32,711 bases of DNA from an uncultured Bacteroidota bacterium (lineage in GTDB: Bacteria > Bacteroidota > Bacteroidia > Chitinophagales > Chitinophagaceae), in the NCBI GenBank assembly GCA_946479615.1, contig CAMLGR010000037.1, positions 1 to 32,711 of the forward strand, read 5' to 3'. The position numbers were made by a program, and so were the translations under genes. Below are positions 6,971-29,345 of the stretch, piece after piece; within the stretch, counting starts at the first letter, position 1; the number at the start of each line of letters is the position of its first letter. The notes beneath the pieces are model-generated. The model saw only the letters and a program-made list of their open reading frames with translations. It did not search any database and had not been told where the DNA came from.

Positions 6971-7070
6971 CCTATGTGAAAAACTATACTTCTATGTGCT
7001 TATGTGGTGAGATTACACCAGTCAGCCTTTTTACCACATAGGCACATAGAAACATAGGTTTCACATAGGG
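6971..7070. repeat. CACATAGG-family inverted repeat, copy A1 (23-24-nt loop class)
   Basis: The left arm (6971-7008) and right arm (7033-7070) are reverse complements with a handful of mismatches. The loop (7009-7032) begins GAGATTAC and ends CCTTTTT. It starts 5 nt after the aminopeptidase stop and ends 8 nt before the convergent lipoprotein stop. The right arm is identical over 38 nt to that of copy A2. Confidence 0.92.
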
Positions 7071-7078
7071 TTATGGTA

Positions 7079-8431
7079 TCAGAAGATGGAGTGCCTGCGG
7101 AGTTCTACCTGTCCCAGTGAAGTGTTGGCTGCATCGAATGCTTCCTGTTTGATCACACCCACATTGCGGGCATAATAACTTTTGGAATAATAATCCAGCG
7201 CAGACGTGGCATCGGTCCATACACCATTGAACAATACATCCAGTTTTTCTTCTACTACGATCGTGTTGGGATAAGTAATACCATTGATGACTATGGAAGC
7301 ATCTTTTTGTGCAATCTTGTAATTCAGGCGGAACGTGATCGCATTACCCGAGACTGTTCCCGAGTAAGCGGCGCTTTGCCAGGAAGTATTCGCTGCTATA
7401 TTATCCTTCAGGAAAATATATTCCACCCATAACGGATCATCCAATCCCCATAAACCACCCATATCCACAAATTCATAATAATCGCCGCCGGCTTTCCTGT
7501 AATAGCCCGATGAATCAAATCCGTTCAGGGTATTATCAGTTGCCGCGAAGATCGTATAGGAGCTGGCGCCGACGGCTTTTGTAAACGTAGTGGCGACACG
7601 AAGCAGGGTATCATTCACATCATCATCGATCTCATAACTCCAGTTGCTGTTGCTGGTCCTGGGAAAATAATCATCCGTGGATGGCGCAGCCGCCACCACG
7701 ACCGGAAAACTGCAACTGGTCGCACCAGCTGTTACGGCGATATTAGTCGTGCCGGCTGTGGAAGGTGTTCCATTGGCAGTAAGCGTAATAGTCTGGGAAC
7801 CGGCCGCCAGGGTGCCTGAACCAGTAAAAGTTAGCCCGTTATTCAGCGTGGTTGTGATGCTATAAGTACCGGGCGTGGTAACAACCACTTTTATAATGAC
7901 TTTATCGGAAGCATCGGCAGGTACATCTTTGGTATAGGTTCCCTGCAAGGTATAATCCATACAGGTGCCTGGTGAACCATCCAATGTATATACTGCCGCC
8001 ACAGGAGGTGTGCCCCCCGCGGGAAGCACCGTTACAGGCACTACGCATTCCGTAGTATCATAAGTAACGGTAAAATCAAATGATCCGTCTGCAACCGGGG
8101 TGCCGGTGCCTGGCAATTTGATGGTATTTAGTCCTGCGGCTGTAAAAGAACCGATCGCACGAAAATAGATCCCGTTGATAGTATCAGTATAAACGGTATA
8201 GGTCCCGGTCTTTGTTACATTCACCTGCACTTCGATATAATTCGCTGCTGCAGCCAGGGCAGTGCCGGCTTTATAATCACCCGTCACTGTCTTGGGCAGA
8301 CATTCACCATTGGCATCATCCTGTAAGGAGCCACCGGATTTTCCATCACCGGATGTAAAACTCACTTCTTTCTGGCAGGCTATAAAAAGAGTAAATACGG
8401 AGATAAGCAGGAATAGCAGGGTCTTTTTCAT
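7079..8431 (-). CDS. Repeat-containing lipoprotein A
   Basis: 450 aa. The N-terminus MKKTLLFLLISVFTLFIAC gives a lipoprotein signal with lipidated Cys19, so it is probably on the outer membrane. Two similar units of about 90 residues follow (roughly 43-140 and 155-250). Each starts at a cysteine (CLPKTVTGDY, CMDYTLQGTY), contains a G-T-Y-x-I/V-x-T-x-x-N-G core and a second cysteine near its end, which suggests a paired-cysteine beta-sandwich. The C-terminal part (about 255-450) is different: NWSYEIDDDVNDTLLR, later KLDVLFNGVW and YYSKSYYARNVGVIKQE. The function is unknown. It is a paralog of the next gene upstream, with which it shares the N-terminal half and the promoter region. Confidence 0.8.
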   Translation of the reverse strand: MKKTLLFLLISVFTLFIACQKEVSFTSGDGKSGGSLQDDANGECLPKTVTGDYKAGTALAAAANYIEVQVNVTKTGTYTVYTDTINGIYFRAIGSFTAAGLNTIKLPGTGTPVADGSFDFTVTYDTTECVVPVTVLPAGGTPPVAAVYTLDGSPGTCMDYTLQGTYTKDVPADASDKVIIKVVVTTPGTYSITTTLNNGLTFTGSGTLAAGSQTITLTANGTPSTAGTTNIAVTAGATSCSFPVVVAAAPSTDDYFPRTSNSNWSYEIDDDVNDTLLRVATTFTKAVGASSYTIFAATDNTLNGFDSSGYYRKAGGDYYEFVDMGGLWGLDDPLWVEYIFLKDNIAANTSWQSAAYSGTVSGNAITFRLNYKIAQKDASIVINGITYPNTIVVEEKLDVLFNGVWTDATSALDYYSKSYYARNVGVIKQEAFDAANTSLGQVELRRHSIF

Positions 8432-8449
8432 GAGCTGTGGTTATAGTTG

Positions 8450-8457
8450 CTAAAATA
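8450..8457 (-). promoter_or_regulatory. Shared -7-like element of lipoprotein A
   Basis: On the minus strand TATTTTAG lies 18 nt before the ATG. The same octamer is found at the same 18-nt distance before the paralog at 8650-10131, with similar sequence in between. It resembles TAnnTTTG with two changes. No clear -33 element is seen. Confidence 0.4.
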
Positions 8458-8482
8458 AGGATTTTACCAGCCCGTTGGTTTT

Positions 8483-8584
8483 CTATGTGTGTATTCCTAT
8501 GTGCCTTATATGCCTATGTGGTAAAAAGCTGCCTGGCGTAATCTCACCACATAGGCACATAGAAACATAGGTTTCACATAGGGG
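8483..8584. repeat. CACATAGG-family inverted repeat, copy A2 (inverted loop)
   Basis: The left arm (8483-8522) and right arm (8546-8584) enclose a 23-nt loop (8523-8545) that is the reverse complement of the loops in A1 and A3 (starts AAAAAGC, ends AATCTC). The two arms match each other less well than in other copies: the left resembles copy A4, the right equals A1. It lies between the two lipoprotein genes, beyond the terminator of the upstream one. Confidence 0.92.
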
Positions 8585-8593
8585 TTTATGTAT

Positions 8594-8625
8594 AAAAAAA
8601 GCTGCCTGTTTTTTACACAGACAGC
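8594..8625 (-). terminator. Terminator of lipoprotein B
   Basis: On the minus strand GCTGTCTG (8618-8625) pairs with CAGGCAGC (8601-8608), with one G-T pair, followed by seven T (8594-8600). It lies 25 nt past the stop codon of the gene at 8650-10131. Confidence 0.85.
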
Positions 8626-8649
8626 CTGATCATATTTTAATTGAATATC

Positions 8650-10131
8650 TTATTGGTAAGTGCCGGTGAAAGTGCCAGCGGAGATCGTTTTGGTAACATT
8701 TGCTTCGTTCTTGACCGTACCGCTGAACGTACCTGTTATCGTTTTGGTAGTGGTATTATGACTGGTTACTTTCAATGTCATAGTAACCCCGGAGATACTG
8801 GGATCGGCATTGTATTCAGCGCTGCCGGAGCCCGTATAATAAAACGCCAGGAAGTTGGTAGTACTGGTCGCTGCACTTGAATATGTTTCATTATTAGTGA
8901 TACCACCTGCAAAATCACCGAGTGTAAAGTCTAAAATCTCCCCGGTGGAAGTGGTTCCTTCGTAAATCAAAGAGGTAAGTGTGCCAACACCCGGTACGGT
9001 GGTTACATCGAGAGATGCATCGGTAAAAGCGCCTTCGTAAGTGGTTGTGCCTTCCTTGAATGACCAATCAGTCGTGGCAGGTCCCGAACCCGGCGCCACT
9101 GTTACGTTGAAGCTGCAAGCGGCTGTGCCACCGGCCAGCGGAACACTCAATGTACCTGCTGCTGTAGGTTTACCACTTCCGGTCAACGTAACAGGTACAG
9201 TTCCGGTAGACGGGAAATTGCCGCTCGCTGAAAAAGTCATTCCGCTTACCGTACCGGTAATGTTATATCCACCGATGGTAGTAACGTTAACCTGTATGTC
9301 TACTGTATTACTTCCATCCAGCGCTACATTTTGTGTATAGACACCATTTGGTACTGCAGATCCGCAATTGATGGTGTATACAGCAGGCCCGGTAACATTG
9401 ATCGGGAAGCTGCAGGAAGAACTGCCAACCGTTACTGTGATATTGGTAACTCCGCTGGCAGAAGGCTGACCATTACCTGCGAGTGTGATCACCTGTGGGC
9501 CTGTATTGAGTACTGCGCCACTACCGGAAAAAATCATCCCGTTATTCGCAGTCGTAGAAATATTATAGGTACCGATGGTTGTTACATTCACGCCGATATC
9601 AACTTTATTTGTCCTATCGAGCGCGACACCTGAAGTATAATTGCCCTGCAGGTTATAGGACATACAGGTAGCAGGCGCACCATCCAGAACCATGGCAGCC
9701 GGTCCGCCTGCTCCTGATGGAAGCGTGGTCACCGCAATGATGCAAACAGATGCATCATAAGTCACTACATAATTATTGATACCGGAGGCAAGCGGGGTGC
9801 CATTGCCTTTTAATTGAATCGTCGTCAGACCGGTAGAGGTGAAAACACCGGTTGCCCTGAAATAAACACCATTGAGTGTATCGGTATAAATTGTATAAGA
9901 ACCGGGGGTGATCACATCAACCTGTACCTCGATATAATTGGTGGCCCCGTTAAGTGCTGTACCTGCTTCGTACGTACCCGCCACTGTTTTAGGTAAACAA
10001 TCGCCTCCTGTATCGCTCTGCAAAGATCCGGCAGAAAGCGCGCCGCCGTTTTCATGGCTGAATTCTTTCTGGCAACTATTAAAAAATGCTATAATAAAGA
10101 GAAGGGAAAGGAATAAAAACTGTTTTTTCAT
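8650..10131 (-). CDS. Repeat-containing lipoprotein B
   Basis: 493 aa. A lipoprotein signal ends at FFNSC with Cys20 as lipidation site. Three tandem units of about 90 residues follow (roughly 45-145, 155-255 and 258-350), each opening at or next to a cysteine (CLPKTVAGTY, CMSYNLQGNY, NCGSAVPNGVY). They share VNVTTIG-Y-NI, an FSGSG/FSASG strand, a G-x-G-x-P-x-A-x-G turn and a late cysteine (SSSCSFP, TAACSFN). The C-terminal 130 residues (from TDWSFKEGTTTYEGAF) form another beta-rich domain ending KNEANVTKTISAGTFTGTY, similar in pattern to DUF6252-like domains. Surface location is inferred; the ligand is unknown. It has one more repeat unit than its paralog downstream. Confidence 0.8.
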   Translation of the reverse strand: MKKQFLFLSLLFIIAFFNSCQKEFSHENGGALSAGSLQSDTGGDCLPKTVAGTYEAGTALNGATNYIEVQVDVITPGSYTIYTDTLNGVYFRATGVFTSTGLTTIQLKGNGTPLASGINNYVVTYDASVCIIAVTTLPSGAGGPAAMVLDGAPATCMSYNLQGNYTSGVALDRTNKVDIGVNVTTIGTYNISTTANNGMIFSGSGAVLNTGPQVITLAGNGQPSASGVTNITVTVGSSSCSFPINVTGPAVYTINCGSAVPNGVYTQNVALDGSNTVDIQVNVTTIGGYNITGTVSGMTFSASGNFPSTGTVPVTLTGSGKPTAAGTLSVPLAGGTAACSFNVTVAPGSGPATTDWSFKEGTTTYEGAFTDASLDVTTVPGVGTLTSLIYEGTTSTGEILDFTLGDFAGGITNNETYSSAATSTTNFLAFYYTGSGSAEYNADPSISGVTMTLKVTSHNTTTKTITGTFSGTVKNEANVTKTISAGTFTGTYQ

Positions 10132-10149
10132 GAAAGGTAATTGTAGCCA

Positions 10150-10157
10150 CTAAAATA
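10150..10157 (-). promoter_or_regulatory. Shared -7-like element of lipoprotein B
   Basis: TATTTTAG on the minus strand, 18 nt before the ATG, the same octamer and spacing as upstream of lipoprotein A. Conservation between the paralogs is the main support. Confidence 0.4.
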
Positions 10158-10240
10158 GCTCTTTTTTGGCTTTCGGGCAGGGAAAGAACCCTGCTGAAAT
10201 ATGGCCCAAAGCTTATATCTTGTCAACGATTTGTTATAAT

Positions 10241-11272
10241 ATGATAAAAACCAGATTCTTCTTATCGGCGCTGTTTATAAGCGGGTTTGTTAATGCACAA
10301 ACCCCCAGGCTGGAAATGCTGGTAACCGCTGGTAAAACCAGTATCAGGGGTCTTAGCGTGGTCACCGATAATATCCTGTGGGTGAGCGGCAGCAATGGTA
10401 CCATCGGGAAAAGCGCCAATGGCGGCAAGAACTGGAAATGGGTGGTGGTAAAAGGCTTTGAAAAAACAGAGTTCAGGGATATTGAAGCCTTTGATGCTAA
10501 CGTCGCTATTATCATGGCAGCAGGTGAACCGGCTTATATTTTAAAAACGATTGATGGCGGCGATAGCTGGAAAGTAGTTTACGAGAACACCACGAAAGGA
10601 ATGTTCCTGGATGCGATGGATTTTGCCACTACCCGGAAAGGGATTGTTATCGGCGATCCTGTCAATGGAAAAATATTTGCGGCACAGACAGAAGACAATG
10701 GGAATACCTGGACAGAAATAAATCCCGGTCAGGATAAGCTCGTTGCTGATAGTGGTGAAGCATTTTTTGCAGCAAGCGGTAGCAATGTAAGGCTGTTTGA
10801 AAATGATAGTTATTTCATGGTCTCGGGTGGTAAACGTTCGCGGTTGTTCACCAATAAATCGGTGATTGATCTGCCGGTGGTGCAGGGAAAAGAAAGTACA
10901 GGCGCCAATTCGATCGATATTTATGATAATGGCATTCCTGATAAACCGGGTTCGCGTATGATCGTTGTAGGAGGTGATTTTGCAGCCGATTCTTTATCTG
11001 CCAATAATTGTTTTTATAGTACCAATGGCGGAAAGACATGGAACCGGCCTAGGATCCCACCGCACGGATACAGGAGTTGCGTAGAGTATTTATCAAAAAG
11101 AGATGTACTGGCCTGCGGACTGACCGGTGTTGATTATTCTGCGGATGGTGGCCATACCTGGAAACTGATCAGTAAAGAAAGTTTTAATGTTTGCCGCATC
11201 GCCCGTATCGGTACCACTATTTACCTGGCAGGTAATAAAGGGAGGATAGCCAGGATATCGATGGATTATTAA
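10241..11272 (+). CDS. Secreted BNR/YCF48-like beta-propeller protein
   Basis: 343 aa. A signal peptide (MIKTRFFLSALFISGFVNA-Q) supports the ATG at 10241 rather than an upstream TTG at 10166 that would add 25 residues in front of it. Five Asp-box motifs (S/T-x-D/N-G-G-x-x-W) are visible: SANGGKNW, TIDGGDSW, TEDNGNTW, STNGGKTW and SADGGHTW. They are regularly spaced as blades of a propeller like the YCF48/HCF136 or BNR families. Members of this group in Bacteroidota are often labelled oxidoreductases without proof. No sialidase catalytic set (Arg triad, FRIP) is seen, so sialidase activity is unlikely. It is divergent from lipoprotein B and convergent with the peroxiredoxin gene. Confidence 0.85.
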   Translation: MIKTRFFLSALFISGFVNAQTPRLEMLVTAGKTSIRGLSVVTDNILWVSGSNGTIGKSANGGKNWKWVVVKGFEKTEFRDIEAFDANVAIIMAAGEPAYILKTIDGGDSWKVVYENTTKGMFLDAMDFATTRKGIVIGDPVNGKIFAAQTEDNGNTWTEINPGQDKLVADSGEAFFAASGSNVRLFENDSYFMVSGGKRSRLFTNKSVIDLPVVQGKESTGANSIDIYDNGIPDKPGSRMIVVGGDFAADSLSANNCFYSTNGGKTWNRPRIPPHGYRSCVEYLSKRDVLACGLTGVDYSADGGHTWKLISKESFNVCRIARIGTTIYLAGNKGRIARISMDY

Positions 11273-11360
11273 TAATTTTTATTCCTGTGCATACATTGAT
11301 TTATACAATGATGAAAGGTTTTATTAAAAAATCCGTCTTATTGAGAATATCAGTGTATGA

Positions 11361-11951
11361 TCATTTAAGGTTATCGAGTATTTCCTGGATAGAAGGTCTT
11401 TTTTTATAGTCGGTATTAAAGAAACGGTAGGTGATAGTGAAATCTTTATTAATGATGTAGGTAGCAGGAACAGGCAGGTAATTACCATTTTTTCCATTGT
11501 TCTCTTCCAGTTTGATGCCTGTATTCCGGTAACGTGCAAGTGTATTTTCGGGCACTTCGTATTCTACTTCATAGGCTTTCATGATCTTTAACCCTTCATC
11601 GTAAAGAATAGAAAATTGTGCGTTTGTTTTTTCGATGGTCTTTGAGATATTTTCAGGCAGTTCAGGGGTAACGGCGACAACGGTAGCGCTTTTTGCCTGG
11701 ATCAGCGATAGTGAATCCTGTAGTTTCTTTAATTGTTTATTGCAATAGGGGCACCATTGTCCGCGGTAAAAAATAAGTACTACATTTCCTTTTTTCAACA
11801 GATCGCTCAACCGTATTTCTTTACCATTTTGATCTTTGGCTTTGAAATTGTAGGCTTTTGAATTGATAAAAAGACCCTCGGGCGCTTCCTGTGAAAAACC
11901 GGCAGCAGCCGTGAACAGTATAATTAAAAACGAGAACAGTAATTTTTTCAT
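11361..11951 (-). CDS. Exported peroxiredoxin-like protein (AhpC/TSA family)
   Basis: 196 aa. A signal peptide (to about residue 20, AAAGFS-Q) is followed by a thioredoxin fold. VVLIFYRGQWCPYCNKQLKK carries Cys67 and Cys70 in a CPYC arrangement within the peroxiredoxin-like context Y-R-G-x-W-C-P-Y-C. The end of the fold contains the cis-proline region LPVPATYIINKDFTITYRFF. This variant resembles the peroxiredoxin-like (DUF899-unrelated) redoxins that reduce peroxides or thiols in the periplasm. The electron donor is unknown. It is a stand-alone gene between convergent and divergent neighbours. Confidence 0.88.
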   Translation of the reverse strand: MKKLLFSFLIILFTAAAGFSQEAPEGLFINSKAYNFKAKDQNGKEIRLSDLLKKGNVVLIFYRGQWCPYCNKQLKKLQDSLSLIQAKSATVVAVTPELPENISKTIEKTNAQFSILYDEGLKIMKAYEVEYEVPENTLARYRNTGIKLEENNGKNGNYLPVPATYIINKDFTITYRFFNTDYKKRPSIQEILDNLK

Positions 11952-12079
11952 GATGGTAATTTACAATGTATAAAATTAAGTTTTCGCGTACTTATACCTA
12001 AGGGTTTTTCAAATATTAACAAATTGGCTTTTTTACTATTTTTACCCACTTATTAACCAGAACCCGGAACAAAACTATT

Positions 12080-12334
12080 ATGAGCAACTCCCACGAAAAA
12101 AAGTTTATAATCAACATGTTCTTCGGGCTGTTATTTACAACGGCCGGTATTTCATCTATTATTTACGCTTGCTTTACCAAAGAAAACGAACATGACTGGA
12201 TCTTCTGGGCCATTGTGCCGGTGATCACTATAAATACAGGTCTCCTGTTTATAGGCAGTTCTATTATCCATAAAGTAAAGGCCGATCTGATCCGTCGTCA
12301 GAAGCAAAAGACAAGGACGGAGAAACCGGACTGA
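12080..12334 (+). CDS. Small membrane protein with two helices
   Basis: 84 aa; no family recognised. Two hydrophobic segments (about residues 10-30, NMFFGLLFTTAGISSIIYAC, and 41-62, WAIVPVITINTGLLFIGSSI) are followed by a basic tail (KVKADLIRRQKQKTR). By the positive-inside rule the tail is cytoplasmic. A hairpin repeat starts 6 nt after the stop. Role unknown. Confidence 0.65.
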   Translation: MSNSHEKKFIINMFFGLLFTTAGISSIIYACFTKENEHDWIFWAIVPVITINTGLLFIGSSIIHKVKADLIRRQKQKTRTEKPD

Positions 12335-12340
12335 TAAATA

Positions 12341-12474
12341 CAGTGGGCAGTGCGCAGTTTGGCAGTTGGCAGTCAATGGTTCGATAGTTGTACTGTCATT
12401 ACTGTATTGAATTAATCGCCTGATTATTGAAAGGCTGCCGGCTGCCCAACTACTGAACTGCAGACTGCCCCCTA
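12341..12474. repeat. Long inverted repeat, CAGTTTGGCAGT family (family D)
   Basis: The left arm (12341-12374) consists of CAGT/GGCAGT words. The right arm (about 12433-12474) is its imperfect reverse complement (about 75-80 percent). The middle is about 60 nt and AT-rich. It begins 6 nt after the stop of the small membrane protein and runs into the last codon of the convergent DUF486 gene (12472). Confidence 0.75.
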
Positions 12475-12810
12475 TCCGAAGCGTTTGGTGAACATGAAAT
12501 AAACAGCTCCCAGTAAAAATGCGAAGCTCACGAGATAGCGCCAGTGAAAGGATTCTTTCATGACTACAATCGCGAAGATGGAGAATACGATCAGTGTCAC
12601 TACTTCCTGGATAATCTTTAATTGAAACAGTCCTATCCCCTCCTGTTTGCCCAGCCTGTTGGCCGGAACAGCCAGGCAATATTCGATCAGGGCGATCAGC
12701 CAGCTTAGTACGATCGCTTTCCACAAAGGCCATCCTTCGTATTTTAAATGATAATACCATGCAAAGGTCATGAAGATGTTCGATGCTGCGAGTAATAAGA
12801 TAGTACGCAT
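12472..12810 (-). CDS. DUF486 (DMT-type) small membrane protein
   Basis: 112 aa with four predicted membrane helices. The start MRTILLLAASNIFMTFAWYYHLK, the middle SWLIALIEYCLAVPANRLG and the GLFQLKIIQEVVTLIVFSIFAI segment are characteristic of DUF486, a half-size relative of drug/metabolite transporters. The end AFLLGAVYFMFTKRF is also typical. Transport substrate unknown. It stands alone; the gap to the cutC operon downstream-upstream boundary holds no clear signal. Confidence 0.88.
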   Translation of the reverse strand: MRTILLLAASNIFMTFAWYYHLKYEGWPLWKAIVLSWLIALIEYCLAVPANRLGKQEGIGLFQLKIIQEVVTLIVFSIFAIVVMKESFHWRYLVSFAFLLGAVYFMFTKRFG

Positions 12811-12940
12811 GATAGAATAAAAATTAATATTTCTATGTTATGGGTTTTGTTAGCAGATTTCCGCCCAGGGTTAAAACCATGGGCGTGGTTAGGCGAGATT
12901 AAAATGATGAGCAAAAATTAAACTACGAATGAAATGACCA

Positions 12941-14700: not shown

Positions 14701-14880
14701 TGTTTTGAGTTTAACGTATTCGAAATTAAAGGATTCGGCTGCAACTACCGTTTTCAATCCTGACAAAATGCTTGAAAACAACACATATATTATCGTTAAT
14801 ATGACACTAAGCCGGGAGGGCTGTCAAAAAATGGTATACTTGCAGGATGGGAACGCTTTTTGATGTTTAAACACCGAATA

Positions 14881-14885
14881 AGGAG
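14881..14885 (+). promoter_or_regulatory. Shine-Dalgarno site fixing the FMN reductase start
   Basis: AGGAG lies 4 nt before the ATG at 14890 (AAGGAGTAACATG). It rules against an ATG at 14860 or 14863 that lacks such a site. The same AAGGAGTA string precedes the pirin gene. Confidence 0.75.
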
Positions 14886-14889
14886 TAAC

Positions 14890-15453
14890 ATGAAAATAGA
14901 GATCATTTCAGGAAGTCCGAGAATAAACAGCATGACAAGACGCGTGGCTTTTCACCTGCGCAACTGGTTGAAACAGAATTCCAGGCATGAGATCGGTTTT
15001 ATCGATTTAAAGGATTGGAACCTGCCTCCTATTCAAAATGTATTTGTTTCGGTAGATAATACACCGGAGGAATTTAAACCACTGGCCGAAAGGGTATTCA
15101 ATGCCGATGCTTTTATACTGGTGACTTCTGAATATAATGGCAGCTACTCTCCTGCTTTGAAGAATTTGCTGGATCATTTTCCCAAACAGCATCATAAACC
15201 GTTTGGGCTGGTAACAGCTTCCCCGGGTCCGATGGGTGGAATGCGGGCCGCACAGCAATTATTATTACTGGTGCCTGCGCTGTTTGGCATTGCATCGCCT
15301 TATTTATTGATCGTACCCGGAGTTGATAAGAAGTTCAGTGCAGATGGAGATTTGATCGAAGCGGGTTTTTCAAATAATGTACACAATTTCATGAGTGAAT
15401 TTTTATGGCTGGCGGAGAAAGTGGTTACAGAGATTGTTCCAGCCAATATATAA
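14890..15453 (+). CDS. NADPH-dependent FMN reductase family protein
   Basis: 187 aa, flavodoxin-like fold. The FMN phosphate loop SGSPRINSMTRR is at residues 6-17. TSEYNGSYSPALKNLLDHF around residues 78-96 is the second FMN-binding loop, followed by GLVTASPGPMGGMRAAQQL. These match the ChrR/YieF/azoreductase-type NADPH:quinone reductases. The start is set by the AGGAG site; ten upstream in-frame residues are left out. It diverges from the glycosylasparaginase gene. A TATACTTG at 14835 is one base off the -7 consensus. The pirin gene follows on the same strand; quinone reductase and pirin pairs often act in redox or quercetin-like responses. Confidence 0.9.
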   Translation: MKIEIISGSPRINSMTRRVAFHLRNWLKQNSRHEIGFIDLKDWNLPPIQNVFVSVDNTPEEFKPLAERVFNADAFILVTSEYNGSYSPALKNLLDHFPKQHHKPFGLVTASPGPMGGMRAAQQLLLLVPALFGIASPYLLIVPGVDKKFSADGDLIEAGFSNNVHNFMSEFLWLAEKVVTEIVPANI

Positions 15454-15454
15454 C

Positions 15455-15557
15455 CTATGTGTGTATTTCTATGTGTCCTATGTTTCTATGTGGTGAAATT
15501 ACGCCAGTCAGCTTTTTACCACATAGAAACATAGGACACATAGAAAGACACACATAG
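15455..15557. repeat. CACATAGG-family inverted repeat, copy A3 (best paired)
   Basis: The left arm 15455-15494 and right arm 15518-15557 pair at 39 of 40 positions around a 23-nt loop (15495-15517) starting GAAATTACGCCAGTCAGC. It begins 1 nt after the FMN reductase stop and lies 31 nt before the pirin start, with the pirin ribosome-binding site just beyond it. Confidence 0.95.
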
Positions 15558-15577
15558 AATAAAAGTTGTAAAAACAC

Positions 15578-15583
15578 AAGGAG
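15578..15583 (+). promoter_or_regulatory. Shine-Dalgarno site of the pirin gene
   Basis: AAGGAG, 5 nt before ATG 15589. Such a strong site is uncommon in this window and matches that of the FMN reductase gene. Confidence 0.7.
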
Positions 15584-15588
15584 TATAT

Positions 15589-16299: not shown

Positions 16300-16335
16300 G
16301 GAGTTTCATGAATGTTGTAAGTATATTTTGATTGG

Positions 16336-16371
16336 AACGCCGCGGGCTGAAAAGTTCGCGGCGTTTTTTTT
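16336..16371 (+). terminator. Rho-independent terminator after pirin
   Basis: AACGCCGCG (16336-16344) pairs perfectly with CGCGGCGTT (16357-16365), closing a 12-nt loop and followed by a run of T to 16371. It lies 36 nt past the pirin stop. Confidence 0.92.
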
Positions 16372-16407
16372 ATACGGAATGGATGGTTGATAGCGGGAAG
16401 GTAATGA

Positions 16408-16635
16408 AATAGAACACGGATAGAGGTGGATGAACGGATTAAATTGGATATACAATAATTGTTCAAAAAATCCTTTATATCCTTTTATCCGTATTATCTA
16501 TGTTGCATTCATTAGATCGGCATAAATAGAACACGGATTGGATGGATAGAACGAATGCAAATTGATTGTAAGCATTTCACCTGCCAGGGGCGATCCACAT
16601 AACATCCGTTCATCCACCTCTATCCGTGTTCTATT
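16408..16635. repeat. Nested inverted repeat, ATCCGTGTTCTATT family (family E)
   Basis: The outer arms 16408-16439 and 16604-16635 are a perfect 32-bp inverted repeat. Between them lie further diverged copies of the same words (about 16474-16513 and 16524-16558) that form an inner inverted repeat with TTGCATTC ends. It fills the gap between the pirin terminator and the GH20 stop (16666). Two ATCCGTGT words at the window's left end belong to the same family. Confidence 0.92.
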
Positions 16636-16665
16636 CCACCAACAATCCAAATGCCTCTTTACTAT

Positions 16666-19551: not shown

Positions 19552-19553
19552 GG

Positions 19554-19579: not shown

Positions 19580-19603
19580 GTTATTCTAACTGCTTAACCC
19601 GAA

Positions 19604-21160: not shown

Positions 21161-21183
21161 TGCAGTATAGTTGAGTGTGTGAA

Positions 21184-24100
21184 TTAAAGTTTTACATTAA
21201 GGTTAAGACCATAGCTTCTTACCGGAGGCACACCTCCCAGTTCCAGCCCCTGTGAATACCCGGAATAACTTGCTTCAGGATCGATATTATCTGTTTTCTT
21301 CATAATGATAAACAGGTTGCGCGCTACGAGACTGATGGTTGCTCCCTTAACCTTGTTGCCAAAAAAGCTTCCCGGCAAACTATACCCGATCGTTAACTGG
21401 CGGAACTTGATAAAACTCGCATCATACACAAACAATTTGGATACATTACCGGCGATTTGCGAGTAATAAGCATCCGCATAGGTAGTTGGCCCGGGATTGG
21501 GATTAAAGTTTCCTTCCCGGTTAACCAATGTATTTTTATGCAAGCCAAAGAAGTAACCGTAGTAATCAGTCGCTGAAAACACTTTGCCACCGAATTTTCC
21601 ATCGATAAGAAATCCAAGCGTAAAGTTTTTGACACTGAATTCATTGTTCCATCCGAGTGTATATTTCGAATACGCCGATCCCCAGGGTTTCAGGTCTCCC
21701 CTGTCAGGCACACCATTCGCGCCGATCACGATCTTACCGGAAGCATCATACTTATAATCGAATGCCATTACCTGGTTCGCAGCTTCTCCTACAATATGAC
21801 GGGTAAAACCTACACCGGTACGTGAAGTGCCTACTGCGAGTTCAGCCTGTCCTTCCGTGAGTGAAATGACTTTGTTATCATTGACAGATCCGTTGACAGA
21901 ACTTGTCCATTTCAAAGGGCTGGCATTGGATAAAGGTTGTCCTGTTACCAGGAATTCGATACCCTTGTTCTGCAATTCACCGATATTCAATACCACGGCA
22001 GTATACCCGGATGTATTGGAAGCAGGTGATTCAAATATTTCGTTCTTTGATTTTTTGCTATACCAGGCCAGGTCGACACCCACCCTGTTATTGAATAATT
22101 TCAATTCTGTTCCTACTTCGATCTCACTGGCATTGGAAGGTCTTAATTTACTGTTAGGAATTGAAGTATTGGTGATATTTCCCAATGGCAATGTGCCTAA
22201 CTGTACAGGGAACAAACCATAGTTGAGCAATGTTTTATAAGGCAATGTTCCACCACCTACATTGGCCCAACCTACACGCAGCTTACCGAAATTCAACCAG
22301 GATGGATGAAAGAAATCAGTGAATAAGAAAGCTGCATTGACGGATGGATAAAATACATCCAGGTCATCCGATGGGGCCAGTGTAGAGAACCAGTCATTAC
22401 GGCCCGATGCATTCAGGAATAAAAATCCTTTATAATTCATATCCAGTGTGGCATACACAGATTGTACTTCCTGGCGGAAATCCGTGTATTCAATCGTTTT
22501 GTTTTTTGCATTCAGGATCGTATATACAAATGGTATTGCGAAATCGGTACCACCTTCTACTGTTCCTTCCGATCTTGCCTGCATCAGGTTGGCGCCTGCG
22601 TTGGCAGTAATGGAGAAATCGCTGTTTACTTTAAATGTTTTGCCGACTAATACATCTGTGTTCAGTTCCGATACCCTGTTGTATTGTTCCGTGATATTAC
22701 GGAAGGCTTGTGCATAATAACCGGTTCCGTTGGGAACAACGCCTTTATACCTGTCATAATAGAAATCACGACCGGCGCGGGCCTGTATAAACAGACCATC
22801 TTCGAAAGTGTAGCGCGCGCTGACAGAAGCGATCAACCTGTTACGAAGAGTATTGTTGATAAACTTATAGGCAGCAAACCAGGGATTCGTGGCATAGGTA
22901 TTATTCGTGAACAATAATTCATCGCCATTTGGTTTGGAACCAGGTTTCAATGTATTTACATCAAGACTAGTTGGCAGGAACATTACCTGGAAATTGGCAT
23001 TGCCTGCTCCATCGGCAAGGATCGGCCTGTTGATCGCTTTATCATTCACAAATGATGCTTTGGCATCGATCGTCAATCTTTTATTTACATTGAAGACAGC
23101 GGAAAGATTCAGTGTATTGCGATTCAATCCGGAGTTAGGGATCACTGCTTTGTTGCTAAGATCGCTGGCTGAGAAACGAATCGAACCGCCATCAAAGGCT
23201 TTCCCAAACGAAACAGTATTGGTGAAAGTGCTGCCGGTGCGGTAAAAATTCTCGATATTATTTTTCTGTGCTACATACGGTCTTGACACACCATCAAACT
23301 GCACAACAGAAGTGCCATCGAGTTTAGCGCCCCAGCTGGAGTTACCTGCATCATAAGCGGCTGTGGCGTTGGAAGGTTTCACTCCATTCGCACCATTTCC
23401 ATATTGGTATTGCCAGTCGGTCACATCGATCACCTGGTCCATTACAAAATTGGAATTGTATTCGATCGTTCCTTTTCCACTACCGTTCTTGGTTGTGATC
23501 AGGATCACACCTGCTTTTGCTCTTGAACCATACAGGGCAGAAGCAGCAGCTCCTTTCAGTACAGATATTGTTTCGATATCATCAGGATTGATATTCTGAA
23601 TACCATCTCCATAATCGGGAGAGTTATAATATTGTCCTTTTGCATTATCGAGGTTATTACCCATATACAGGTCATTGTTCATGGGTACTCCATTGATCAC
23701 ATACAAAGGCTGGTTATTACCGGATAAACTCGATACACCACGGATGATAACACTGGTGGATGCGCCGGGTCCGCCGGAAACAGAATTCACATTTACACCG
23801 GCTACCTTACCAATCAGCGAATTGGCCACATTTGTTTCCCGTGCCTGCGTGAGTTCGTTACCTTTTACTTCGGTAACAGAATAGCCCAGTGATTTTCTAT
23901 CCTTACGGATCCCCAATGCGGTAACAACGACTTCGCTCAATTGCTGGTTGATCAATGCCAGCGGCACATTGAGCGTTTTATCATCACCTACTGTTATTTC
24001 TTTGGCATCATATCCTACATACGAAATCACAAGTATATCGCCTTTACTGGCAGCAATAGAAAACTCTCCCCTGCTGTTGGTAGTTACTCCTTTGGAAGTA

Positions 24101-24612
24101 CCTTTTACAGTAACGCTTACACCTGCGAGCGGGATATTGTTATTATCTGTTATTCTTCCGGTGATCAGCTCAAAGCGTACAGATTGTTTATCTGTATTAT
24201 CGGACAGATCGGCCTGTATATAATCTTCACTGGCATTTTTCTCTGTGCTGCTGACGATCACGAATGTATTGCCGGATATTTTTTTATATTTGAGGCCGGT
24301 GTTTTTCAATACCTGGTCGAGTATTTTTTCAACATCACCCTGTGTATCTTTTAAAGGGTTCACGAGTTTTTCGCTCATGTTTTTTTCTGAGTAAAGAAAA
24401 TAAACACCTTTCTGGCGGTTAAGGTCTTTTAAGACGGAGATCAATGTTTGTTTGCCATTAGTGTCCTGGGCACCTGCCGTGGCAAAGCTGTTGCTCCGGG
24501 TTTTATTAATAGCATACGTGTAGCCGTTCTGTGCTATCAGATTCGTGGACAGGGTAAGTGCTACCGCTGGCAAAAATCTGTATAGCCGAAAGCTTAATTT
24601 GGTTTTCCTCAT
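21184..24612 (-). CDS. SusC/RagA TonB-linked outer-membrane transporter with STN domain
   Basis: 1142 aa, full length. A signal sequence is followed by a secretin/TonB short N-terminal (STN) domain at about 50-120 (LISVLKDLNRQKGVYFLYSE, ending LKYKKISGNTFVIV). Next is a carboxypeptidase-regulatory-like domain (about 150-220, GRITDNNNIPLAGVSVTVKG). The plug (about 225-380) has SEVVVTALGIRKDRKSLGYS and SGGPGASTSVIIRGVSSLSG. A large 22-strand-type barrel ends in PPVRSYGLNLNVKL. It imports ligands captured by SusD, driven by TonB. The STN domain is the part that contacts a FecR anti-sigma factor, which is encoded 27 nt upstream, so uptake is coupled to sigma-factor control. Confidence 0.96.
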   Translation of the reverse strand: MRKTKLSFRLYRFLPAVALTLSTNLIAQNGYTYAINKTRSNSFATAGAQDTNGKQTLISVLKDLNRQKGVYFLYSEKNMSEKLVNPLKDTQGDVEKILDQVLKNTGLKYKKISGNTFVIVSSTEKNASEDYIQADLSDNTDKQSVRFELITGRITDNNNIPLAGVSVTVKGTSKGVTTNSRGEFSIAASKGDILVISYVGYDAKEITVGDDKTLNVPLALINQQLSEVVVTALGIRKDRKSLGYSVTEVKGNELTQARETNVANSLIGKVAGVNVNSVSGGPGASTSVIIRGVSSLSGNNQPLYVINGVPMNNDLYMGNNLDNAKGQYYNSPDYGDGIQNINPDDIETISVLKGAAASALYGSRAKAGVILITTKNGSGKGTIEYNSNFVMDQVIDVTDWQYQYGNGANGVKPSNATAAYDAGNSSWGAKLDGTSVVQFDGVSRPYVAQKNNIENFYRTGSTFTNTVSFGKAFDGGSIRFSASDLSNKAVIPNSGLNRNTLNLSAVFNVNKRLTIDAKASFVNDKAINRPILADGAGNANFQVMFLPTSLDVNTLKPGSKPNGDELLFTNNTYATNPWFAAYKFINNTLRNRLIASVSARYTFEDGLFIQARAGRDFYYDRYKGVVPNGTGYYAQAFRNITEQYNRVSELNTDVLVGKTFKVNSDFSITANAGANLMQARSEGTVEGGTDFAIPFVYTILNAKNKTIEYTDFRQEVQSVYATLDMNYKGFLFLNASGRNDWFSTLAPSDDLDVFYPSVNAAFLFTDFFHPSWLNFGKLRVGWANVGGGTLPYKTLLNYGLFPVQLGTLPLGNITNTSIPNSKLRPSNASEIEVGTELKLFNNRVGVDLAWYSKKSKNEIFESPASNTSGYTAVVLNIGELQNKGIEFLVTGQPLSNASPLKWTSSVNGSVNDNKVISLTEGQAELAVGTSRTGVGFTRHIVGEAANQVMAFDYKYDASGKIVIGANGVPDRGDLKPWGSAYSKYTLGWNNEFSVKNFTLGFLIDGKFGGKVFSATDYYGYFFGLHKNTLVNREGNFNPNPGPTTYADAYYSQIAGNVSKLFVYDASFIKFRQLTIGYSLPGSFFGNKVKGATISLVARNLFIIMKKTDNIDPEASYSGYSQGLELGGVPPVRSYGLNLNVKL

Positions 24613-24639
24613 ACGTGCAGAGTTTAGTTAGTTTATAAA

Positions 24640-25644
24640 TTATTTGCTGGCAGAGAAAACGATCTCTCCTTTATCCGTTTTGGTGACCTGGACTTTTCCA
24701 TTTCCTGCAGCTGAGATGGCAGCCAGCAGATCTTCCAGGTTATTATTGGCCATGATACCGGTGATGGGTTCAGCTGTGACGCCTATATTACCGGCTAATG
24801 TTACTTTCACTCCATAGTGATTGGTGATCACCTGTGCTACTTCCGTCAATGAAGCATTATCGAATGCCAGTTTGCTTTCTTTCCAGGCGAGTATATTTTC
24901 TTCTTTGGCTTGTTTACGTTGAATAGTTTGTCCGCCCATTTCCACATAATCGCCCGGTTTCATTTTTAATTCCTGCCCGTCTTTGGTATGAATGGTCACG
25001 CTTCCTTCGGTAAGCAATACCGATGTTTTATCCTGGTAATGGGAAACGTTGAACTGTGTACCGGTTACGATCACATCGAGGTTATCGGTGTGCACGATAA
25101 ACCGGCTTTTATGTGGTGTTTTGGTGACTTTAAAAAATGCTTCGCCGTTCAGCCATACTTCCCTGTCATGACCATCTTTCCAATCATTGCTGAGTTCAGC
25201 TTTACTATTCGCATTCAGGATCATCATGGTTCCATCGGGAAGACGGTTACTGCGTACTTCGCCATACACGGTATTGACCTTTGATCTTGGCTGGTTGAGT
25301 GTAAAAAAAGCAACACCGCCGGCAATCAATAAGATCGCTGCTGCTGCACTGATCCACCAGCGCTTGCGGGAAGTATTCATTTTTATGACAGGTGTTGCCA
25401 TTTCATCGATGCGGGCATTCAGTTGTGCCAGTTTCTGTTCAACCTGTTCTTCTGCAACCGATTTCTCCTGGCGGGAAAGTCTATTCATAAATGCAACCGC
25501 TTGTTGTACCAGTGGTTGCTGATCAGGATTAGCAGCCAGCCAGTTTTCCCATGCTTTTACCTGTTCCTCTGTTTCCTTAAAATACCAGCCAAGAAATAAC
25601 TCATCAGCCACTACTTCATCTATCAATTGAAAATTTTTTGCCAT
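24640..25644 (-). CDS. FecR-family anti-sigma/sigma-regulator protein
   Basis: 334 aa. The cytoplasmic N-terminus (about 1-85) has the DUF4880-like opening and a helical WLAANPDQQPLVQQA region. One membrane helix lies at about 95-115 (WWISAAAAILLIAGGVAFFT). The periplasmic FecR domain runs about 120-215 (NTVYGEVRSNRLPDGTMMIL, then FIVHTDNLDVIVTGTQFNVS). A DUF4974 C-terminus lies at about 255-325 (LAFDNASLTEVAQVITNHYG). It relays the ligand-bound state of the SusC STN domain to the ECF sigma factor. It is the first gene of the fecR-susC-susD operon and starts 143 nt from the divergent sigma-factor gene. Confidence 0.95.
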   Translation of the reverse strand: MAKNFQLIDEVVADELFLGWYFKETEEQVKAWENWLAANPDQQPLVQQAVAFMNRLSRQEKSVAEEQVEQKLAQLNARIDEMATPVIKMNTSRKRWWISAAAAILLIAGGVAFFTLNQPRSKVNTVYGEVRSNRLPDGTMMILNANSKAELSNDWKDGHDREVWLNGEAFFKVTKTPHKSRFIVHTDNLDVIVTGTQFNVSHYQDKTSVLLTEGSVTIHTKDGQELKMKPGDYVEMGGQTIQRKQAKEENILAWKESKLAFDNASLTEVAQVITNHYGVKVTLAGNIGVTAEPITGIMANNNLEDLLAAISAAGNGKVQVTKTDKGEIVFSASK

Positions 25645-25787
25645 AAAAAAATCTTTCCGTTTAAATAATAAGTGTCAGAAATTCCGATTTTGTAATGTGT
25701 TTTGTAAAACTTTTTTAATTTGGAGTACCGAAGCTGCGAAAAAAACGATAGGTTACATCACTGCTGCGTAAAAAAATAACTGCTTAG

Positions 25788-26336
25788 TTGAACGATATTG
25801 CTGCCGATATTGTGTTATGGAATGCCTTTAAGGAAGGCGACAGGCAAGCCTTTGACGACCTGTTTCGCCGGTATTATCCCATGCTTCTCCAGTATGGGTC
25901 GAAAATATGCGCCGATGATACGATGACGGAAGACAGCATCCAGGATCTCTTTATTGAATTATGGCAAAGCAGGACCACAACACCGTTGCAATCCGTTAAA
26001 GCCTATTTGTTTAAGGCATTGAAGTATAAATTATTCCGGCAGTTGAAAAAACTGCGGACAGTGCAACAGGTAGATGATGAACAGGACAACCTGTTTGAGA
26101 TCAGCGAGGAGCATTTTATATATACACGTGAAGAAGAAGCCTCCACTACTCAAAAGATAATAGCGGCGATCAACGGGTTGCCAGCACGTCAGAAAGAGAT
26201 CGTTTACCTGAAGATCTACCAGGGATTGAATTATGAAGAGATCAGCGAGGTAATGAATATCAATTACCAGGCAGCGCGGAATCTTTTCTATCAATCTGTC
26301 AAATCCCTGCGGCAATTAATAACCAAAAGAGAATAA
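25788..26336 (+). CDS. ECF sigma factor (RpoE-like)
   Basis: 182 aa. Region 2 lies at about 10-80 (DRQAFDDLFRRYYPMLLQYG, then SIQDLFIELWQ and VKAYLFKALKYKLFRQLKK). Region 4 lies at about 120-178 (INGLPARQKEIVYLKIYQG, then LNYEEISEVMNINYQAARNL). It should direct transcription of the adjacent fecR-susC-susD operon when FecR is triggered. The start is unusual: the frame opens with TTG at 25788 right after an in-frame TAG, and the first in-frame ATG would remove about 31 residues of region 2. A GTG at residue 9 is the only other option. It is divergent from fecR instead of upstream on the same strand. Copy A4 of the CACATAGG repeat begins at the base after its stop. Confidence 0.94.
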   Translation: MNDIAADIVLWNAFKEGDRQAFDDLFRRYYPMLLQYGSKICADDTMTEDSIQDLFIELWQSRTTTPLQSVKAYLFKALKYKLFRQLKKLRTVQQVDDEQDNLFEISEEHFIYTREEEASTTQKIIAAINGLPARQKEIVYLKIYQGLNYEEISEVMNINYQAARNLFYQSVKSLRQLITKRE

Positions 26337-26472
26337 CCCTATGTGGTATATTCCTATGTGCACCTATGTGCCTATGTGGTGAGATTACGCAGTTCTGTAA
26401 TAGTAATATATCAGATTGGCGTAGATTTTACCACATAGGCACATAGGTGCACATAGGAATACACACATAGGG
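26337..26472. repeat. CACATAGG-family inverted repeat, copy A4 (49-nt loop class)
   Basis: Arms 26337-26380 and 26430-26472 are nearly perfect reverse complements (43-44 nt, two to three differences). The 49-nt loop (26381-26429) starts GAGATTACGC and ends GCGTAGATTTT. The left arm starts at the first base after the sigma-factor stop codon. Confidence 0.95.
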
Positions 26473-26545
26473 CTCGCAAAAAGCTGCAAACAGATTCATG
26501 CAAACGTTTTCATTGCAATTCATGTGCATGGTAATTACATTTTAA

Positions 26546-26553
26546 TATCTTTG
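26546..26553 (+). promoter_or_regulatory. -7 element of the nagB fusion gene
   Basis: TATCTTTG matches TAnnTTTG exactly, 27 nt before the ATG. No good TTTG at the -33 position is seen, so an activator may be needed. Confidence 0.45.
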
Positions 26554-26580
26554 AACCTCTGAAAAAGAAAAATCAGCTTC

Positions 26581-28509
26581 ATGGCTAAAAAAGCAATCCC
26601 CATCGATCTTACAGATAGTTTTGAAAAAATACCGGTAAAAATATTTCCTGATCTCAAACAAGGCTCCCTCGCAGTTGCACAGGAGATCGCTGCACTGATC
26701 CGGGAAAAACAAAAGAAGAAAGAGAAGTGTATTCTTGGTTTGGCAACCGGCTCTACTCCTAAAACATTATACGCAGAACTTGTGCGCATGCACCGCGAAG
26801 AGAAATTGAGTTTCAAGAACGTTATCAGTTTCAATCTCGATGAATATTACCCGATCGATAATGATGCCTTGCAAAGTTTCAACCGGTTTATGCACGTGAA
26901 CCTGTTCGATCATATCGATATCAATCCAAAGAATATTCATATCCCGAATGGGGAAACGTCAAAAGAAGATATCAAAGCACATTGCCTGGAATATGAAAAG
27001 ATGATCGAAGATGCGGGAGGTATCGATCTGCAGATATTAGGTATCGGCACCAACGGACATATTGGTTTTAACGAACCCGGTTCCGGTATTTATTCCAAAA
27101 CCAGATTGATCACGCTCGATAACTCCACGCGGATCGTGAACTCGTATGAGTTTGCCAATATATCGGAAGTACCACGACTGGCCATTACCATGGGCATCAG
27201 TACCATCCTGAAATCAAAGAAGATCATATTGATGGCCTGGGGTCCGGCAAAAGCACCTGTTATCAAAAAAGCAGCAGAAGATGATGATACGGAACAGGTG
27301 CCGGCTTCCCTGCTGCAGAATCATGACAATGTCAATTTTATTATCGATGAAGCAGCCGGCGCTGAGCTCACACGTAATAAATCGCCGTGGCTGACCGGTG
27401 AATGTGAATGGACACCTGCCATGATCAAGAAAGCGGTCGTGAATATGGCATTGAAATTAAAAAAACCGGTACTGAGCCTGACCAATGCCGATTATACAGA
27501 ATACGGGTTAAGCGATCTGATCGTAGAAAAGGGCGATGCATACGAGATCAATCTCGAAGTATATTATTTATTGCGTGATACGATCACGGGCTGGCCTGCC
27601 GGCAAACCGGGTACAGATATACCTAATCACCCGGAACGTTCGGAACCATATCCTAAAAAAGTCATCATCTTCTCCCCTCACCCGGATGATGATATTATTA
27701 GTATGGGTGGAACTTTTCAGCGTTTATTCGACCAGGGACATGATGTGCACGTCGCTTATCAGACCAGCGGAAACATTGCTGTGACGGACGAGTTTGTTAC
27801 CCGCTACCTTGATTTTGCGGTGGGCTTTGAAGAAATAGCAGGTATCGATACCAGCAAATCGGGAAAGATACTTGCTGATGCACGAAAATTCATTTCAAGG
27901 AAAAAATCAAACCAGGTAGATACACCCACTATACGCTCGATCAAAGGGTTGGTACGAAGAGGAGAAGCCAAAGCTACCTGCCGGTATGTAGGATTGAAAG
28001 ATGAAAACATTCATTTCCAGGATCTGCCTTTTTATGAAACAGGCATGGTGGAGAAAAAACCAATGAGCGAAAAAGATGTAAAGCTCACGATGGAATTATT
28101 GCGGGAGATACAACCGCAACAGATCTATTGCGCCGGCGATTTTGCCGATCCGCATGGAACGCATAAAACCTGTTTCGATATTGTAGCGGAAGCATTGCGC
28201 AGGATCAAAAAGGCGGGTGATGAATGGATCGATGATTGCTGGGTTTGGTTATATAAAGGCGCCTGGCAGGAATGGAACATCGAAGAAATACAAATGGCTA
28301 TTCCTATGAGCCCGGGGCAAGTGATGAAAAAAAGATTCGGCATCTTCATACATCAATCACAAAAGGACATGGTGCCTTTCCAGGGTTCGGATGCAAGAGA
28401 GTTCTGGCAACGGGCTGAAGACCGCAATGCCAACACCGCCAATCTTTACGCGCAACTGGGCCTGACAAAATATGCTGCGATGGAAGCGTTTGTGAGATGG
28501 AGATTTTGA
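26581..28509 (+). CDS. nagB: Glucosamine-6-phosphate deaminase fused to PIG-L deacetylase domain
   Basis: 642 aa, more than twice a normal NagB. Residues about 15-280 form the deaminase: LATGSTPKTLY, Asp87 in FNLDEYYP, then Asn158, His160 and Glu165 in GIGTNGHIGFNEP. The E. coli enzyme has Asp where this has Asn158; Asn is common in other NagB groups. Residues about 358-540 form a PIG-L/LmbE domain with zinc ligands His367 and Asp370 (SPHPDDD) and the later HxxH His525/His528 (DPHGTHK). The deaminase converts glucosamine-6-phosphate to fructose-6-phosphate and ammonia. The second domain may remove the acetyl group from GlcNAc or its 6-phosphate, which would make a NagA-NagB function in one chain; that is inference. 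The architecture is known from Bacteroidota. Confidence 0.93.
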   Translation: MAKKAIPIDLTDSFEKIPVKIFPDLKQGSLAVAQEIAALIREKQKKKEKCILGLATGSTPKTLYAELVRMHREEKLSFKNVISFNLDEYYPIDNDALQSFNRFMHVNLFDHIDINPKNIHIPNGETSKEDIKAHCLEYEKMIEDAGGIDLQILGIGTNGHIGFNEPGSGIYSKTRLITLDNSTRIVNSYEFANISEVPRLAITMGISTILKSKKIILMAWGPAKAPVIKKAAEDDDTEQVPASLLQNHDNVNFIIDEAAGAELTRNKSPWLTGECEWTPAMIKKAVVNMALKLKKPVLSLTNADYTEYGLSDLIVEKGDAYEINLEVYYLLRDTITGWPAGKPGTDIPNHPERSEPYPKKVIIFSPHPDDDIISMGGTFQRLFDQGHDVHVAYQTSGNIAVTDEFVTRYLDFAVGFEEIAGIDTSKSGKILADARKFISRKKSNQVDTPTIRSIKGLVRRGEAKATCRYVGLKDENIHFQDLPFYETGMVEKKPMSEKDVKLTMELLREIQPQQIYCAGDFADPHGTHKTCFDIVAEALRRIKKAGDEWIDDCWVWLYKGAWQEWNIEEIQMAIPMSPGQVMKKRFGIFIHQSQKDMVPFQGSDAREFWQRAEDRNANTANLYAQLGLTKYAAMEAFVRWRF

Positions 28510-28511
28510 TA

Positions 28512-28600
28512 TGGTATTAGGTGAGGAATTAAGAATGATGAATGAGATCTTCCTTTCACACTGCATTTTGTATTCCTAATTCCTAATTCTTAATTTCATC
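28512..28600. repeat. Inverted repeat, AATTCCTAATTCTTAATT family, copy B1
   Basis: The left part (about 28523-28552, GAGGAATTAAGAATGATGAA) and right part (about 28571-28600) are imperfect reverse complements made of GGAATTAAGAATTAG-like words, around 70 percent pairing. It fills the gap between the nagB-fusion stop (28509) and the PAP2_C gene, and shares its words with copy B2. Confidence 0.75.
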
Positions 28601-28624
28601 TAAATCTAAAACCAATTACGCATC

Positions 28625-29239
28625 ATGAGATGGAAAGAAGCCTGGAAGGGAAAATTCAGAACCGCTTTCTGTGCCGGATTCATTATACTGATTCTTATTC
28701 TTGCCTTCTTCCCGGTGTTCTTTCAATGGATTGAAAAAAGAAAAGGTATCACGCTTCATGATCCTTTACTGGCAGCTCTCCCGGCTTACGATCTTTCAAT
28801 TCCTATATTTATTCTTATCTGGTCAATGACAATTTTGATATTGGTGCGATGTATTCAATCGCCTCTTACCTGTTTTCTCTTTTTATGGGGTTACATCTTC
28901 CTATGTCTTTCGAGAATGCTTACATTGGCACTTGTACCGCTGGCGCCACCGGTTGGGTTGATTGAACTAAAAGATCCATTGACGAATATATTTTATGGCG
29001 GAAAGTTTATTGCTACTGATTTATTTTATTCGGGTCATACAGCCACGCAATTCCTCATCTTTCTTTGTCTTTCACGCAGAACAGATAAACTGATCGCTTT
29101 GTCAAGTACGATTGCCATCATCATTATGCTATTATTGCAGCATGTACATTATACGATCGATATAGGTGCAGCACTTCTTTTTTCCTTCCTGGTTTACCGG
29201 GCTGCAAGATCATTCACCTATATGTGTACTTCTATGTGA
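28625..29239 (+). CDS. PAP2_C (sphingomyelin synthase-like) membrane phosphotransferase
   Basis: 204 aa with about six membrane helices. Two motifs match the sphingomyelin-synthase/PAP2_C group. The first, ATDLFYSGHTATQFLI, has His138 and corresponds to the C-G-D-x3-S-G-H-T motif with the Asp kept. The second, HYTIDIGAALLFSF, has His175 and Asp179 and corresponds to H-Y-T-x-D-V. These three residues form the catalytic triad that moves a phospho-head-group between lipids. Bacteroidota make sphingolipids, so a ceramide head-group transferase is plausible, but another lipid phosphatase or transferase cannot be excluded. The last eight codons (from about 29217) are made of repeat copy A5, so the C-terminus TYMCTSM is repeat-encoded. 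Confidence 0.8.
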   Translation: MRWKEAWKGKFRTAFCAGFIILILILAFFPVFFQWIEKRKGITLHDPLLAALPAYDLSIPIFILIWSMTILILVRCIQSPLTCFLFLWGYIFLCLSRMLTLALVPLAPPVGLIELKDPLTNIFYGGKFIATDLFYSGHTATQFLIFLCLSRRTDKLIALSSTIAIIIMLLLQHVHYTIDIGAALLFSFLVYRAARSFTYMCTSM

Positions 29240-29345
29240 TCATGTGCCTAGTGGTAAAATCTATGCCAATCTGATACATTACTATTACAGAACTGCGTAG
29301 CCTCACCACATAGGCACATAGACACAAAGGAAGGCACACATAGGG
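29217..29345. repeat. CACATAGG-family inverted repeat, copy A5 (49-nt loop, inverted, overlaps a CDS end)
   Basis: Arms about 29217-29255 and 29305-29345 are more decayed than in other copies. The 49-nt loop (29256-29304) is the reverse complement of the A4 loop with about five differences. The left arm runs through the stop codon of the PAP2_C gene and supplies its final codons. Confidence 0.9.

Follow-up and report, generated by a model that had tools for sequence, protein, structure and literature searches.

The systems described so far that come closest to the repeats considered here differ in their enzymes and in the make-up of their palindromes. For repetitive extragenic palindromic (REP) elements and their RAYT (TnpA-REP) transposases, passages of PMC6006769 report Bacteroidetes RAYT genes flanked by atypical secondary structures, copies of which occur elsewhere in the genome and which lack the GT[AG]G foot. 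The passages of PMC4990558 concern 23S rRNA intervening sequences with S23p/IVP genes, suggested there to be selfish, and a figure legend in PMC10910872 lists the 23S rRNA IVP among the proteins of a CRISPR-association screen. For Beggiatoaceae, passages of PMC4679880 record intergenic TAACTGA arrays in 169 direct-repeat sets and one indirect set. Here we describe five hairpins, A1–A5, in contig CAMLGR010000037.1 of an uncultured Bacteroidota bacterium (assembly GCA_946479615.1), analysed over positions 1–32,711 (hereafter the window). With a confidence that stops a little short of even, we assign A1–A5 to a class of word-array elements associated with GxxExxY genes (PF13366/TIGR04256), of which they would be gene-less, inside-out members resembling miniature inverted-repeat transposable elements (MITEs).

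Structure of hairpins A1–A5

The five hairpins lie within 1–3 nt of the positions given in a preliminary description of this DNA, in both of the orientations reported there. On the plus strand, A1 (6971–7071) comprises a left arm (6971–7008), a 24-nt core (7009–7032) and a right arm (7033–7071); A3 (15454–15557) has a 23-nt core (15495–15517) and arms that match, as first stated, at 39 of 40 positions; and A4 (26337–26473) has a 49-nt core (26381–26429) with an inner stem formed by TACGC/GCGTA and TCTG/CAGA. A2 (8483–8586; 23-nt core, 8523–8545) and A5 (29217–29346; 49-nt core, 29256–29304) lie on the minus strand. The earlier division of the cores into two size classes stands. The A4 and A5 cores both contain the inner stem and differ at 4 of 49 positions, which corrects an earlier count of about five changes; no comparable stem occurs in the 23-nt cores. 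A ten-base core start, previously taken as common to both classes, is exact in A2 and A4 only (GAGATTACGC), with GAGATTACAC in A1, GAAATTACGC in A3 and GAGGCTACGC in A5.

The arms are built, as had been recognised, from repeated degenerate words: CTATGTG/CACATAG occurs 29 times, against a mean of 1.97 and a maximum of 6 in 100 runs of a second-order Markov model. Each arm begins beside the core with ACCAC and follows a scheme in which an 'ACC' head precedes degenerate words, ACC-ACATAG-GCACATAG-AAACATAGG-TTTCACATAGG. The heads face inward in all five copies, with GTGG on the 5′ side of the core and CCAC on the 3′ side, and the outer ends of the hairpins are their least conserved part. Palindromes of ~100–137 nt with internal conservation recall a classical MITE of an insertion sequence (IS) located elsewhere in the genome, the arms serving as terminal inverted repeats. 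Variable outer ends, combined with the absence of a visible target duplication at the five junctions, are however the reverse of transposase-recognised termini, and the make-up of the arms is common to the flanks of GxxExxY genes (see below); we consider an origin of this kind very improbable.

The claim that arms usually match within a copy applies to A3, to A4 and mostly to A1, but not to A2 and A5, where the match is poor. Alignment scores within copies were 27, 21, 38, 35 and 21 for A1 to A5, compared with a between-copy mean of 22.2, and within-copy pairing was better than expected by chance: of the 945 ways of pairing the ten arms, 15 did equally well. The arms of A2 match each other poorly past the words nearest the core. 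On the plus strand, the right arms of A1 and A2 share an identical 38 nt despite mutually inverted cores, and the other arm of A2 is similar to that of A4; the arms are thus mosaic. This sharing looks more like exchange between copies, with inversion of the core, than like strict pairing within a copy. Homogenisation of the arms, proposed in the preliminary description, is therefore visible, but sharing between copies is as prominent as pairing within them.

A separate observation concerns the core of A2, whose first 13 nt on the plus strand (AAAAAGCTGCCTG; 8523–8535) recur in a terminator-like hairpin 60 nt away (8596–8608). The base in which A2 departs here from A1 and A3 is the one that creates the match, a pattern that suggests local conversion.

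Placement at gene ends

A1 starts 5 nt past the stop of an open reading frame (ORF) and ends against the stop of a convergent gene, filling the gap between them. A3 and A4 both start 0 nt past a stop, that of ORF 14860–15453 and that of the sigma-70-like ORF 25788–26336, respectively, and A5 overlaps the C-terminus of the PAP2-like ORF 28625–29239. A2 is intergenic but does not sit at a stop. By comparison, of 9176 positions sampled in the window, 256 fell within −4 to 15 nt of a stop, counting ORFs of at least 80 codons. In other DNA, 102 CACAGAG heads could be judged from the sequence upstream of them, and 46 of these coincided with a long ORF's stop, versus 112 of 2140 random positions; at 46 of 102, placement at stop codons is a tendency only.

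Hairpins directly behind stop codons would also be expected of non-mobile intergenic palindromes that became symmetric through template switching, slippage or gene conversion and were kept as 3′-end RNA structures (terminators or mRNA stabilisers). A1 and a related hairpin at 32032–32192, both between convergent genes, are consistent with such an origin, as are the mosaic arms and the 13-mer that the A2 core has in common with its neighbour. On the other side, the cores are conserved at unlinked loci and in opposite orientations, so that copying between loci is needed, and no hairpin is directly followed by a run of at least four T. Two results from other genomes, given below, also speak against non-mobile palindromes: genomes differ in whether one junction holds a comparable hairpin, and GxxExxY genes are flanked by arrays in many genomes. 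We rate a non-mobile origin as rather unlikely.

Inverted word arrays around GxxExxY genes

It is the arm design, with its 'ACC' head and then degenerate words, that generalises beyond the window. With the 99th percentile of shifted windows as threshold, GxxExxY genes were flanked by inverted word arrays at 56 of 73 Pseudomonadota loci, the words including CACAGAG, CACGAAG, CGCAGAG and others. Such flanks were also present at 4 of 8 plasmid loci. The protein is a predicted Cas4/RecB-like PD-(D/E)XK nuclease of ~120 residues; a Foldseek search gave no match at E ≤0.001, the best being SSO0001 at 3e-3. A sister pattern, AACCACAGAGRCACAGAG, was found in 14 of 398 Pseudomonadota genomes (reversed control pattern, 0) and in 69 stretches of viral contigs. 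One array from this set (L120) aligns with an A1 arm, the main difference being a T in the window and a G in L120 in each word. For 107 CACAGAG heads, a matching tail was found within 100 nt downstream (heads outward) in 45 cases and upstream (heads inward) in 8, where density predicts about 3–4 by chance in each direction. The window family, with inward heads and a conserved core, thus departs from the common layout rather than simply repeating it.

Two GxxExxY loci show further details. In L140 (1492–1926), one word array supplies the start of the gene and its first residues (MNHRDTEVQ...), and the adjacent ORF, OppC, passes through the other array close to its own start. In L137, inspection by eye shows that the GxxExxY element is preceded by an array and by a second, diverged version of the beginning of the downstream gene, as if ~90 nt had been duplicated.

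Presence and absence could be followed at the junction between OppB and OppC, for which the locus was taken from 30 of 53 matching genomes, 28 of them readable. The junction was clean in 23 of the 28, with 62–119 nt between the OppB stop and a conserved OppC motif; of the remainder, one gap measured 159 nt and one held a different ORF. In two genomes (L222 and L223) arrays begin immediately after the OppB stop and enclose a GxxExxY gene; in another (L227) the same place is occupied by a word hairpin that contains no gene. This pattern fits insertion, with loss as the alternative.

IVP genes (PF05635) form a parallel class. They are present in 51 of 299 genomes, and at 22 of 30 loci (L253–L280, L148 and L149) these four-helix genes lie inside inverted word arrays whose words differ from those around GxxExxY, including TAGGCAG, AGTAGTGAG, GTGAGG and others. 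In the window, a long imperfect hairpin of TTAGGTG/TTAAGTG words (3396–3510) takes up the whole interval separating two minus-strand ORFs; it resembles the IVP-gene arrays of other genomes, and a comparison of arms supports this weakly (2 of 29).

Searches for relatives and for a RAYT mobiliser

An exact pattern spanning the arm end and the core start, which itself misses A1 and A5 and does not reach inexact copies of the core, gave one match in genome contigs. This match, in a Comamonadaceae contig, is coding and forms no hairpin, and was rejected as chance; in viral contigs the pattern had no match. BLAST of A4 returned nothing from plasmids and three phage records at E 5. Viral contigs L004 and L010 contain palindromes of AACCACATAGGCACATAG..., in L010 beside an array of CACAGAG words; BLAST of the L010 hairpin against plasmids gave six weak records (best E 0.09). 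L009 and L011, which represent one and the same stretch, carry a single array that by eye lies directly behind a stop. Among the candidates set aside, inward-facing pairs of CACATAG words in 14 stretches of viral contigs were isolated pairs without arrays and were taken as chance, and several of the 9 viral-contig stretches with CTATGTGCCTATGTGGT were coding matches without arrays. The 16-base forms of the words did not occur in the literature searched.

Turning to mobilisation by a RAYT, the hairpins could be REP-like elements moved by a Bacteroidetes-type enzyme (TnpA-REP subclass 2.6). Single-strand transposition is compatible with occurrence in both orientations and with the absence of a target duplication, RAYTs of this kind are reported in Bacteroidetes in the passages of PMC6006769, and the GTGG/CCAC pair around the core is formally like the 'double foot' of the subclass 2.4 REPs described there. 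However, GTGG in A4 is ~6 nt from the inner stem rather than 0–2, and the short cores offer no stem with which to make the comparison. A Y1 transposase match was absent from the two genomes richest in exact CACAGAG heads (G333 with 13 and G252 with 14) and from all 50 array-bearing viral records scanned, and the test applied to GxxExxY loci detected inverted arrays at none of 10 Y1 loci. The 38 records listed for RAYT on plasmids include no Bacteroidota. The RAYT-type mobiliser envisaged in the preliminary description is therefore not supported in the genomes examined, none of which is a Bacteroidota chromosome; for that reason, and in view of the reported Bacteroidetes RAYTs and the GTGG/CCAC pair, we retain it as a rival, albeit an unlikely one.

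Other features of the window

The hairpin at 32032–32192 shares a scaffold with A1, CAGAG words replacing CATAG (CAGAGGGCCGCAGAGAAGACACAGGGTTTCACAGAG compared with CATAGGCACATAGAAACATAGGTTTCACATAG in A1). Further word-built stretches comprise related sequences at 16405–16638, where ACACGGAT/GGATGAACGGAT words are arranged in inverted fashion; a minus-strand array of CACGGAT at ~23–50; and two intergenic hairpins of AATTAGGAATT/AATTATGAAT words (28527–28595 and 30293–30370). An array like these last two lies near the CACATAG hairpin of viral contig L004. The window has a G+C content of 43% and encodes a receptor of the SusC/RagA type, for which Bacteroidota provide most of the plasmid matches. 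An Rfam scan of the window gave a single match above the gathering score, a tRNA (2026–2099, minus strand).

Proposed element class

In the class that we propose, the ends would be arrays of a degenerate 7–10 nt word behind an 'ACC' head. The commoner layout would have two facing arrays, heads outward, enclosing a short loop or a GxxExxY gene, often at a gene end and touching its stop codon. The window layout would be this arrangement turned inside out, with the heads directed inward onto a conserved core of 23–49 nt, speculatively derived from a circle junction that reopened in the loop. GxxExxY would act in trans by cutting the palindrome, and repair from another copy would spread the arms and homogenise them. 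We infer both that A1–A5 are members of this class and that they are moving now or did so once. The preliminary suggestion of a small non-autonomous element fits the repeated copies, their two orientations, the placement at gene ends and the presence or absence of a comparable hairpin at one junction elsewhere, and is to that extent supported.

Several results weigh against this assignment. Neither target duplication nor precise excision was seen. A Pfam scan of 10 window ORFs detected no GxxExxY gene, the 50 array-bearing viral records scanned (of 69) likewise contained none, and none was seen with flanking CACATAG words. A CACATAG array pattern had one match in the 398 Pseudomonadota genomes and its reversed control two. 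Clear inverted arrays are missing at 17 of 73 GxxExxY loci and at 3–4 of 8 plasmid loci, and the inward layout is rare outside the window (8 of 107 heads, versus 45 outward). Alignment of the window arms with GxxExxY flanks gave maxima of 15–21 and means of 9.5–10.8, and reversed arms scored nearly as high (14–18 and 9.3–10.4), so that much of the similarity reflects composition and word make-up. When 72 GxxExxY arms, drawn from 40 loci, were combined into a profile, three of its four best matches in the window were arms of the hairpins, but their scores of ~10 fall below the maxima of shuffled sequence (mean 12.1, highest 17.8), and the profile is accordingly not used as proof. Mobilisation of DNA in trans by GxxExxY is our inference. 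The literature passages on GxxExxY treat neither mobility nor repeats, and no paper on such arrays around the gene was found in a search whose scope excluded subscription papers and preprints.

A wider proposal, which we hold with distinctly less assurance and regard as doubtful, is that inverted word arrays with GxxExxY and, in parallel, with IVP constitute minimal mobile elements across phyla, in which the nuclease or the four-helix protein acts on arrays whose word may drift freely provided that the two arms drift together, A1–A5 being a gene-less, inside-out derivative, perhaps a reopened circle junction, that spreads in trans. If true, a widespread type of repeat would gain a named carrier, and two common proteins of unclear function, GxxExxY and the IVP relatives, would be placed in small elements with word-array ends. 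A Cas4-like nuclease would then operate outside CRISPR and recombination pathways, and how arms change yet stay matched would become a question testable with one nuclease and one substrate.

Comparison with known systems

Compared with a MITE of an IS, A1–A5 lack conserved terminal inverted repeats as well as target duplication. They resemble REP/REPIN elements and their RAYTs in being small intergenic palindromes present in several copies and both orientations, with no target duplication seen and a trans-acting enzyme presumed. They differ in having no GTAG/GTGG foot at the outer base, as the passages of PMC6006769 define it, the GTGG lying inside, next to the core; in arms made of tandem degenerate words; and in that the arrays elsewhere accompany a predicted nuclease gene, with no Y1 match in G333 or G252. 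The Beggiatoaceae TAACTGA arrays are likewise intergenic arrays of short words, some beside stops, and common to distant lineages, whereas the passages of PMC4679880 name neither a conserved-core hairpin nor an enclosed gene family. The 23S rRNA intervening sequences, in the passages of PMC4990558, share with the proposed class a small ORF bounded by inverted repeats that together form a single long stem; their gene family and word type are different, and the window copies are gene-less and lie outside rRNA.

The elements associated with GxxExxY (TIGR04256/PF13366, PDDEXK_3) have predominantly outward heads, unlike the inward heads of A1–A5. The likenesses are that the genes lie between inverted arrays made up like the window arms; that the ACC head and degenerate 7–10 nt words recur in A1–A5, as judged from an alignment with an array of G333 and the comparison of flanks, composition explaining part of it; and that both tend to be placed at stop codons, in the window directly for A1, A3 and A4 and by overlap with a C-terminus for A5, though not for A2.
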